NCBI RefSeq assembly: GCF_000317085.1
Contig: NC_019702.1
Location: forward strand, 2,882,394-2,946,393
DNA length: 64,000 bases
Direction of reading: 5' to 3'
From: Synechococcus sp. PCC 7502
Lineage (GTDB): Bacteria; Cyanobacteriota; Cyanobacteriia; Pseudanabaenales; Pseudanabaenaceae
The translations under genes and the position numbers were made by a program. The notes beneath the pieces were generated by a model. It did not search any database. It was given only the letters and a program-made list of their open reading frames with translations, and was not told where the DNA came from. Shown here one piece after another: positions 5,763 to 9,094 of the stretch; the first letter of the stretch is position 1, and every line of letters starts with the position of its first letter.

Positions 5763-6881
5763 TTATTTAGCTGGTGCCATCGCCATTTGTTTTAGCCATT
5801 GGTAATTAGCAGCGATCGCTGATCCGAAAGTGGGGTAGACATTATATTTAATCCCAAATTCTTCACAAACTTCAGCGACAATGCCAGCGATTTGCGGATA
5901 GTGGATATGGCAAACATGGGGAAAAAGGTGATGGATGGTTTGGTAGTTAAGTCCGCCAATGTACCAGTTCAAAAAGGCATTTTTAGGAGCAAAATCCACT
6001 GTGGTTTTCACCTGTAAGACTGCCCATTCATCATCAATATGATTAGAGGTAGCATTCACTTCCACAAATTCCGCAGGGACTAGGACATGAGCTAACATAA
6101 ATACTACACAGGTGACTAAGCCATAGGTCATGTAGGCAATGGAAAACCCAGCGATTGCCATTAACGGTGAATATCCCAAAGCGATCGGTAGTCCAATGAA
6201 AAATCCTAATCCTAAAGCCTTTAAGCCAAATAGAAAAGTTAAATCTAAAGGTTTGGGCATCGGCACCTTGTGATCAAAGTATTTGCGATCACCCAAAATA
6301 ATGGCAATATCGCTGTAAGACCAATAGAAAGGAATTACCAAATATACAAACCAAATAAATAGATGCTGATAGCGATGAAACCACTTATGTTCCATGTCTG
6401 GAGCCATTCTGACTAAGCCATCACCGTGAATTTCCACATCATGATTAGTAATGTTGGTATAGGTGTGGTGCAGAAAATTATGCCGATACCGCCACAGGTA
6501 GCTAGATAAGCCAATAAAGTCGTAGCACAGCCCGATCGTATAATTAATTTTAGGATTTTTAGAATAACCACCGTGATTAGCATCATGTCCCACACTCATC
6601 CCACAGGCAGCGATCGCCATCCCCAGAGAAATACAGCCTAAAACTTTAAAGCCAATGATTACAGGGGCAAAAACCACAAAAGCCCAAGAGCCAAACATCC
6701 AAGCGGTAATCGTGACAGTTTTGACATACATTGCCAAGTTATCCCGAGGCTTAATATTATTGGAGCTAAAGTAGGCATCAACTCTTTTATTTAATTCCTT
6801 CTTAAAACCAATACTTTTACCGAAGGTGACTCGGTCAGCTTTCAGGGATTTCTGATCCACAGTGTTTGCAGTCATTGTCAT
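5763..6881 (-). CDS. desD: Delta-6 acyl-lipid desaturase (DesD-like)
   Basis: This membrane di-iron desaturase inserts a cis double bond at delta-6 of C18 lipid-bound fatty acids. The 372 residues carry the three histidine boxes: HDANH, HNFLHH and QTIHH. Gln instead of His opening the third box is the mark of front-end desaturases. Long stretches such as SSYLWRYRHNFLHHTYTN and HDVEIHGDGLVRM agree with what I remember of cyanobacterial DesD. Four hydrophobic segments fit the family topology. It starts one base after the stop of the upstream desC gene, so the pair is co-transcribed. Confidence 0.9.
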   Translation of the reverse strand: MTMTANTVDQKSLKADRVTFGKSIGFKKELNKRVDAYFSSNNIKPRDNLAMYVKTVTITAWMFGSWAFVVFAPVIIGFKVLGCISLGMAIAACGMSVGHDANHGGYSKNPKINYTIGLCYDFIGLSSYLWRYRHNFLHHTYTNITNHDVEIHGDGLVRMAPDMEHKWFHRYQHLFIWFVYLVIPFYWSYSDIAIILGDRKYFDHKVPMPKPLDLTFLFGLKALGLGFFIGLPIALGYSPLMAIAGFSIAYMTYGLVTCVVFMLAHVLVPAEFVEVNATSNHIDDEWAVLQVKTTVDFAPKNAFLNWYIGGLNYQTIHHLFPHVCHIHYPQIAGIVAEVCEEFGIKYNVYPTFGSAIAANYQWLKQMAMAPAK

Positions 6882-6882
6882 C

Positions 6883-7779
6883 TTATTTAAGCCCCGCAGG
6901 TAGCCAAGGTGCAGGGATATAAACTTTTTTCGCTAATCCCACGGCTCGTAATAACCAGATCGCACCCCAAGTTGGATCAATTTCCCACCAATTTAAGCCA
7001 GCCCTTGCGGATTTCGGATAGGCATGGTGATTATTATGCCAGCCTTCACCGTAGGTTACTAATGCTGCCCACCAAAGATTGGTGGAATGATCGTCACTAT
7101 CACCAAAGTTACGGTAGCCCCATTTATGACAGGCGGAGTTAATAAACCAAGTGCTGTGAGAAACTAATACAGCCCTGACAAAAATGCCATAAATTACAAA
7201 GCCAATACCCTGTCCTTGGGTAGCTCCAATAAAATAGAGCAGGATGCCTAGGGGAATTTGTAAACTTAAAAAATATTTATCTAAAAAGCGATAGTAGGTG
7301 TCAGAACCTAGGTCTGGGGCAAAGCTATAGTAATTCTTAAAATCAAAATGTTCTTTTTTAGAATATAAAATCCAAGCTAAGTGACTCCACCAAAATCCTT
7401 TGCTGGCAGAATAGGGGTCTTTGTCATTATCTTCAGTAAACCCGTGATGCTGCCGATGTCCCCCCACCCAAAATACAGGACCACCTTGCAAAGCCAAAGC
7501 TCCAAGGGTGGCAAAAATATACTCTAGCCATTTGGGTACCTGAAAACTCCGATGACTCAAGAGCCGATGATAACCAAGACAAATACCGATGCTGCCCGTA
7601 AGCCAATGCAAAAATATTGTTAAACCTAGTGCTTGCCAAGAAAAATAGCCAAACCCTAAAAGAGCGATCGCATGCATGACAACATAGAAAATTGTAGTTG
7701 TCCAATTAAGTTGTAAAGACTCTTGATTATCTGGTTGGTTAGTCGGCTTTTGATTTGAATTTAAAGAGGTTGTGGTCAT
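6883..7779 (-). CDS. desC: Delta-9 acyl-lipid desaturase (DesC-like)
   Basis: This 298-residue membrane desaturase has the box HRLLSH, an HRQHH box and the third box HNNHH in GEGWHNNHHAYP. That set identifies the delta-9 family acting on stearoyl chains of membrane lipids. It supplies the monoenoic substrate for the delta-6 enzyme encoded immediately downstream, and the two reading frames are separated by a single base. The promoter should be in the 136 bp shared with the divergent TetR-like regulator, which makes that regulator a candidate controller of membrane desaturation. Confidence 0.92.
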   Translation of the reverse strand: MTTTSLNSNQKPTNQPDNQESLQLNWTTTIFYVVMHAIALLGFGYFSWQALGLTIFLHWLTGSIGICLGYHRLLSHRSFQVPKWLEYIFATLGALALQGGPVFWVGGHRQHHGFTEDNDKDPYSASKGFWWSHLAWILYSKKEHFDFKNYYSFAPDLGSDTYYRFLDKYFLSLQIPLGILLYFIGATQGQGIGFVIYGIFVRAVLVSHSTWFINSACHKWGYRNFGDSDDHSTNLWWAALVTYGEGWHNNHHAYPKSARAGLNWWEIDPTWGAIWLLRAVGLAKKVYIPAPWLPAGLK

Positions 7780-7915
7780 GAGGTACCCAAAAAGAAAGTA
7801 GGTAAAATTAGATTAATATAAGCCTCATATAAGTTAACATTGTTCAATTGAATTATGCAAGCAGCACTTGCAATTTTCAGAATTATTTAAGACTTGCATC
7901 CTACCCCCCAAAATC

Positions 7916-9094
7916 ATGGCTCTTGAGCGTATTCCCACTCGCCAAAAAATTGTTAATACTGCCTTAGAGTTATTTGCCCGCCAAGGGATTACGGAAACTA
8001 CTACCCGTCAAATTGCCGATCGCGCTGAAGTCAATGAAGTCACTTTATTTCGCCACTTTGGTAATAAACATGGATTACTACTAGCAGTACTTCAGGAGTT
8101 TCTACAGGAATATTTACTGGTTACCCAATTGGGAGAATCTTTAATTCCATCAGAATTTAAGAGTACGGTCGATTTGTCACAATTTTTGTACCACTATATG
8201 CAGAGTTCGTTGCACGCTTTAGAAAGTGTCCCTGAATTAATGCGATCGCTAGTGGGAGAAGCAGGACAATATCCCCAAGAAAGCCGTCATGCCCTAGCTC
8301 AGGGAATTACTGAAATTAATCGAGCGATCGCCAATGCTCTTCAAGAAGCTAAACCTCATCTAAATTCGACTTCAGAAACACTGAGTTTAGCCAAGATAAT
8401 GAATGCTTGTATTTTGGGTTATACAATTATGGTTTTAACCAGTGATGTGGAATTAATCTGGAGCAGCAAAGACGAGTTTATAGATAGTCTAGTTAAACTG
8501 CTGATACCAAAATCCTCTTCTCGCCTAGAAAATAATCCAGAAATTCAAGATATTCCAGAGGTTGAAGTTAGAAATATTCTGCTACAGGCAAAACGCCAAG
8601 GACTGAGAGACTATGCGATCGCCTATGTATTATTCGGAGCAGGGTTAAGTGCAGATGAGCTTGTTAATCTTAATCAAACTGATTATTCAATAGACTATTC
8701 CATTAATAAAGCGGGAATTCTCAAAATTCAAGAACGTTTAGTCCCTCTAAATCAAAAGATTTTTGGACATCGCTACGGCACCGCTAACAATAACCCGCTT
8801 ACCAATTACTTAAAAAGTCGTAAAGATAAGCATCCTCGCATGTTTTTATCCAATACAGCCCAACCTTTAAGCACATCAGAACTAGAACAACTATGGCGGA
8901 GTTGGCATAATTTAAGTTTTGAGATCGCCCAAACTCAACACACATGGCGGATTGAAATGTTAAGGCGGGGTATAGACCATGAAAATTTTCAAATTATTAG
9001 TGGTTTGCCTCAGTCAGAAATCTTAGCCTATGACCTCAAGGTCAAGGAATATCTAGCTCTTCAGCAGGCGATCGCTTTGGATAAATCAACATAG
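7916..9094 (+). CDS. TetR-family regulator fused to a degenerate tyrosine-recombinase-like domain
   Basis: The first ~55 residues form a TetR/AcrR helix-turn-helix (GITETTTRQIADRAEVNEVT, then LFRHFGNKHGLL), followed by a TetR-type ligand/dimer region to about residue 210. Residues ~225-393 look like the catalytic domain of a tyrosine recombinase: RDYAIAYVLFGAGLSADELV matches the RDxALxxLLxxTGLRxxEL block, and QHTWRIEMLRRGIDHENFQI matches the RHTFATxLLxxGxDxxxIQ block. The catalytic residues are lost (Arg I is Ser/Ala, Arg II is Gln, the LGH His is Leu), so strand cleavage is unlikely. I chose the ATG at 7916; an in-frame TTG 48 bp upstream is possible. It is divergent from desC. Confidence 0.75.
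   Translation: MALERIPTRQKIVNTALELFARQGITETTTRQIADRAEVNEVTLFRHFGNKHGLLLAVLQEFLQEYLLVTQLGESLIPSEFKSTVDLSQFLYHYMQSSLHALESVPELMRSLVGEAGQYPQESRHALAQGITEINRAIANALQEAKPHLNSTSETLSLAKIMNACILGYTIMVLTSDVELIWSSKDEFIDSLVKLLIPKSSSRLENNPEIQDIPEVEVRNILLQAKRQGLRDYAIAYVLFGAGLSADELVNLNQTDYSIDYSINKAGILKIQERLVPLNQKIFGHRYGTANNNPLTNYLKSRKDKHPRMFLSNTAQPLSTSELEQLWRSWHNLSFEIAQTQHTWRIEMLRRGIDHENFQIISGLPQSEILAYDLKVKEYLALQQAIALDKST

Follow-up and report, generated by a model that had tools for sequence, protein, structure and literature searches.

TetR-family repressors of desaturase genes, represented by DesT, FabR and MadR, are a known functional class (PMC8872791). DesT of Pseudomonas aeruginosa and FabR of E. coli repress unsaturated fatty-acid genes, DesT controlling a desaturase operon and binding acyl-CoA, and MadR of Mycobacterium represses the desaturase genes desA1 and desA2 and is released by saturated acyl-CoA (PMC8872791). 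Among cyanobacterial TetR proteins are PfsR, PrqR and Sll1286 of Synechocystis 6803, of which PfsR autoregulates (PMC4092027).

Here, we describe a TetR regulator encoded in a 64,000-nucleotide stretch of Synechococcus sp. PCC 7502 (NC_019702.1, positions 2,882,394 to 2,946,393; hereafter the window, whose own numbering is used throughout). Like DesT, FabR and MadR, the family of this protein is linked to a desaturase gene (155 of 158 loci), and predicted promoter and operator geometry supports repression of the same type. It differs from DesT and FabR, which consist of a single TetR module, in carrying a recombinase-like domain. MadR also lacks an extra domain, and its targets are mycolate desaturases rather than the acyl-lipid desaturase DesC. 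We found no close sequence relationship between the window regulator and DesT or FabR. PfsR was considered as a known example of the architecture and rejected, as it is 203 aa long without an extra domain; it acts in iron homeostasis, whereas the window family is tied to desC. The open-access literature that we searched held no paper on a TetR–pseudo-recombinase architecture or on a TetR regulator of cyanobacterial desC. The fusion, its conservation beside desC and its operator thus appear undescribed in that literature.

A TetR regulator with a tyrosine-recombinase fold

The regulator gene (7916..9094, + strand) encodes 392 aa with matches to PF00440 and PF00589. Its bounds were upheld, with an ATG start at 7916 that fits the N-termini of homologues and a stop at 9094. 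A preliminary description had proposed an N-terminal TetR helix-turn-helix, and Pfam places TetR_N at residues 12-58 (7949..8089, + strand; PF00440, E 3.7e-15, 55.9 bits against a cutoff of 24). The same match was found in 49/49 aligned family members, and the helix-turn-helix sequence (TTTRQIA...VNEVTLFRHFG) is almost invariant among homologues. In AlphaFold2 model mf3ef5fccb60e, an all-helical ligand-binding and dimerisation region follows (residues 61-198; 8096..8509, + strand), and then a low-confidence linker (residues 199-211; 8510..8548, + strand) in which pLDDT falls below 50 at residues 200-206. Both domains are well predicted in the full-length model, which used 49 homologues (mean pLDDT 88.7, pTM 0.57), while their mutual placement is uncertain.

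Residues 2-202 of this model align with many TetR chains (Z 16-18), and matches by VIA-align include FadR with stearoyl-CoA (Z 17.1), DesT with palmitoyl-CoA (3lsj; Z 16.6) and FasR (Z 16.4). Given that drug-binding QacR scores as high as these acyl-CoA binders and that TetR folds are mutually alike, the ligand is not readable from the fold, and the acyl-CoA-binder matches are weak evidence. An ordinary TetR C-terminal domain is already present at residues 61-200, which align with DesT, FadR and FasR; the recombinase-like domain is additional to it, and the reading that it is itself such a C-terminus is excluded.

That domain (residues 212-391; 8549..9088, + strand) is, as modelled, a complete tyrosine-recombinase catalytic fold of the Xer type. 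PF00589 (Phage_integrase) covers residues 214-363 at 27.6 bits, just over the curated Pfam cutoff of 27.1, and is also matched in 42/49 aligned homologues, with a best E of 2.7e-12. The C-terminal 196 residues alone match the Pyrococcus abyssi Xer recombinase 4a8e by phmmer (E 2.3e-8), as does a profile of 49 homologues searched against PDB sequences (E 1.3e-12). Modelled alone, the domain reaches a pLDDT of 94.1 and a pTM of 0.89 and matches XerA in Foldseek (E 1.7e-8, TMq 0.70); VIA-align pairs it with XerA 101-283 over 168 residues at Z 18.9 and 24% identity. Further structural matches are archaeal Xer, XerH, the Tn1549 integrase, Cre and lambda integrase, so a lack of similarity to recombinases is excluded for this region.

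With XerA, XerC, XerD and XerH the domain shares the catalytic-domain fold and several motifs. It departs from them in its lost catalytic positions, in its fusion behind TetR, in the absence of the N-terminal core-binding (SAM-like) domain of active recombinases, in whose place residues 1-200 are TetR, and in a family-specific insert at residues 279-295 (8750..8800, + strand). The insert, NQ-x-I-x-G-x-R-Y-G-S-x-x-x-NPL, is absent from Xer recombinases and forms a gap in the 4a8e alignment. Few stretches of the domain are as well conserved, and N279, G284, G288 and P294 are invariant (alignment A1). R274, R302 and K303 are also invariant or almost so among homologues. The domain is weakly charged, with a family mean net charge of +2 (-1 in the window protein) and a family median pI of 8.6.

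Archaeal Xer scores 50.8 bits against the domain profile, and an intact Xer-like enzyme from a family whose regulator lacks the domain (f26) scores 33, suggesting that the domain likely originated within the Xer group. A local donor was considered and rejected, the other PF00589 proteins of the window genome scoring 10.8 bits or less against the same profile.

FtsK-gamma docks on XerD. One alternative for the domain's role is that it senses a signal or docks a partner (a lipid or redox signal, or a protein partner like FtsK-gamma) and has no part in DNA binding or operator pairing. The conserved insert that Xer enzymes lack and the weak charge fit such a role, against which stands the fact that neither partner nor ligand was identified computationally; we consider this alternative somewhat unlikely.

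Loss of the catalytic residues

Box I and box II of a tyrosine recombinase had been recognised in the sequence beforehand, and both hold: GAGL-S-ADEL corresponds to GAGL-R-VSEL of Xer, and AQT-Q-HTW..RRGID to HQL-R-HSF..ERGID. At the pentad positions, the window protein has S245 (box-I Arg), A338 (HxxR His), Q341 (box-II Arg), L364 (His/Trp of box III) and Y372 (nucleophile). The reported absence of both catalytic Arg residues and of the LGH His was therefore correct, and it extends to the HxxR His; retention of the Tyr had gone unremarked. Placement of the catalytic columns was confirmed by aligning the intact Xer-like enzyme of family f26 to the same profile, the box III column being least certain because its loop length differs from that of Xer.

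The same losses recur across 141 fused proteins. At the box-I Arg position, 79 have S, 27 have T and 6 have R; at the HxxR His position, the common letters are E, D and A, never His; at the box-II Arg position, 74 have Q and 47 have R; and no LGH His remains. At the nucleophile position, Tyr is kept in 123/141 and replaced by Phe in 9/141. No protein retains more than three of the five scored catalytic positions. Since catalytic positions are lost across the family, recombinase activity is not expected, and judged from these columns the domain is catalytically dead in the whole family. Together with the Pfam and structural matches, this bears out the proposal of a dead tyrosine-recombinase fold fused to a TetR regulator.

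Distribution and linkage to desC

The family is widespread in cyanobacteria. More than 80 full-length cyanobacterial homologues were found, and the best 80 loci are all cyanobacterial. The full fusion occurs in about 43 of 386 genomes of the phylum, all in the class of the window organism. A query with the TetR half found an orthologue or close relative in 194/388 genomes of the class, some without the extra domain. At six loci (L182, L183, L186, L188, L189 and L190), the two parts of the protein, TetR and recombinase-like, are encoded in different frames. These loci, mostly from fragmented genomes, were set aside; they are probably frameshifts in draft genomes, natural splitting being the alternative.

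In the window, the gene for a delta-9 acyl-lipid desaturase of the desC type (6883..7779, - strand) is divergent from the regulator gene and is its putative target; by tblastn, it adjoins essentially every fused homologue. It lies directly upstream and divergent in 109/109 fused loci first examined and is divergent in 155/158 of the wider set. Together with the intergenic palindromes described below, this supports the suggested tie to membrane desaturation. A second desaturase gene (5763..6881, - strand), which we take by its sequence to be of the DesD type, is separated from desC by a 1-bp gap and is possibly co-transcribed with it. The preliminary description had set the regulator against a desC-desD pair; desC is indeed the conserved partner, whereas having desD beside it is a peculiarity of the neighbourhood in this genome and is not conserved elsewhere.

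The window genome has another delta-9 desaturase gene (C3 426921-428606) in two parts about 0.9 kb apart, broken at residues 149-151. It may have been split as if by insertion, and the desC of the window may be the only intact copy. Elsewhere in the same genome, an lgt-like gene is flanked by a 90% identical copy of 197 nt that span the 3' end of the regulator gene and extend beyond its stop codon. There (L002 1366-1689; C3 ~2527334-2527657), the copy supplies the C-terminus of a 107-aa ORF whose N-terminus is unrelated.

Gloeothece citriformis PCC 7424 also has the desC-regulator module, with both operators, on a plasmid (pP742403), whose annotation describes the regulator only as TetR/AcrR. 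On this plasmid (NC_011730.1, L259, 1546-5724), the pair adjoins genes for an orange-carotenoid-protein N-terminal domain and a light-harvesting-like protein, and the region is possibly a mobile photoprotection and membrane module.

Operator-like palindromes in the predicted desC promoter

The intergenic regions between regulator and desC contain palindromes of the form TGCAAGT-N3-ACTTGCA, usually two. In 134/141 fused loci, two palindromes stand 43-60 bp apart, most commonly 46-48. In the window, the regulator-proximal palindrome O1 (7856..7872, TGCAAGCAGCACTTGCA; the same site as in relatives) has one mismatch, for which 0.02 occurrences are expected per 64 kb, and the window genome has no other site with one mismatch or none. 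The second site of relatives, O2, falls at 7804..7826, where no recognisable copy was found (nothing within 4 mismatches). The sampled genomes that have the regulator each contain a palindrome match adjoining it, and ten sampled genomes without it contain no match with at most one mismatch. A wider regulon in the window genome was rejected, as 9 two-mismatch sites were found versus 11 for a reversed-pattern control.

Read toward desC, O1 ends in a -35-like TTGCAT, and in most loci an extended -10-like TGNTA follows 12-16 nt past the palindrome at near-constant distance; the -10 predicted for desC in the window is poor. On this predicted promoter, the second palindrome sits just beyond the extended -10, at about +1 of desC in most species. 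Outside promoter-like elements, the spacer between the operators has no conservation beyond close relatives.

This geometry bears on whether the protein could instead activate desC through contact of its C-terminal domain with RNA polymerase. Activators, too, bind at the -35 position that O1 touches, and the -35-like element is imperfect; however, an operator at about +1 is in a repressing position, and TetR proteins mostly repress (PMC4092027), making activation very unlikely.

It bears equally on a reading in which the recombinase-like domain itself binds DNA: it would contact the promoter spacer between the operators, as the catalytic domain of Xer does its core site, and exclude RNA polymerase. 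The completeness of the catalytic fold, the family median pI and the near-invariant R274, R302 and K303 would suit such a function. Against it, the net charge of the domain is just about +2 (-1 in the window), the spacer is unconserved as described, and the palindrome persists where the domain is missing. The low charge and the lack of extra conserved inter-operator DNA argue against a strong second DNA-binding role, which we regard as distinctly unlikely.

Orthologues without the recombinase-like domain

Orthologues without the domain occur in family f26 (six genomes), in one genome of the window's own family (G036) and in two of family f5 (G048 and G548). Each of them is encoded divergently from desC and retains the palindrome, so the TetR half most likely recognises the operator, with the recombinase domain as an accessory. 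These orthologues are the strongest evidence that this division of labour, read from sequence comparison, is the most likely one. In a tree of the TetR half, G036 and the G048/G548 pair are nested in fused clades with good support, which implies at least two losses of the domain; the outgroup branch of this tree is very long and its bootstrap support not settled. Family f26 may be a domain-less ancestor or a third loss. Two genomes of this family have a second palindrome, TGCAAGCTTCACTTGCA, immediately upstream of a gene for a multi-pass membrane protein (L254 1501-1517, equal to G367 C7 94482-94498; G214 C1 1386247), which is possibly a second target there.

Repeated loss would also be expected if the domain were a decaying, functionless remnant of a recombinase, as would weaker constraint: its median dN/dS is 0.114 in Pseudanabaena and 0.154 in Nostocales (0.11-0.15), compared to 0.01-0.06 for the TetR half. 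These values are nevertheless well below 1, residues are invariant across 141 sequences, and the fold is clear and the length near-fixed in widely separated families. By the measure of dN/dS, the domain is under purifying selection, and we consider decay most improbable.

Double palindromes were found in 79/85 fused rows versus 3/9 domain-less rows. The link between domain and double operator is suggestive, with 3 independent contrasts and p 0.5. Both operators are kept in two domain-less relatives (L152 and L185), which shows that a double site does not depend on the domain.

A model for the control of desC

We propose that this protein is probably a local, dedicated regulator of desC, likely an autoregulating repressor in the manner of DesT and MadR, with an exapted Xer-type accessory domain. 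A TetR dimer would bind each TGCAAGT-N3-ACTTGCA site between the regulator gene and desC, and the bound dimers would block RNA polymerase, in most species with one site covering the -35 predicted for desC and the second site at about +1. By analogy with DesT and MadR, release would follow when the helical pocket binds an acyl species that reports the saturation of the lipid pool. The regulator would also control its own gene. The recombinase-like domain would not read the operator; as an accessory module for protein contacts, it would promote cooperation between two dimers bound to their operators. That the window has no second operator and a poor -10 weighs against this model.

Among roles for the domain, we favour protein contact, possibly bridging of the two operators, on the basis of its co-occurrence with double sites. 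The operator spacing may be a mere reflection of promoter geometry. A more specific version of protein contact draws on the active Xer tetramer, which holds two recombination sites: by analogy, the dead domain might act as a synapsis module that pairs two TetR dimers across the desC promoter, giving cooperative, switch-like repression. We offer this version tentatively and regard it as rather unlikely; the literature searched held no regulator in which a pseudo-recombinase is put to such use.

DesC catalyses the first step in the desaturation of cyanobacterial membrane lipids; no dedicated transcriptional regulator of desC was found in the literature searched. The family described here, which much of the class shares, provides a candidate regulator together with its putative binding site and makes control of membrane fluidity directly testable. 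It also presents a tyrosine-recombinase fold kept under selection inside a transcription factor after catalysis was lost, for which the natural domain-less relatives are ready-made controls.
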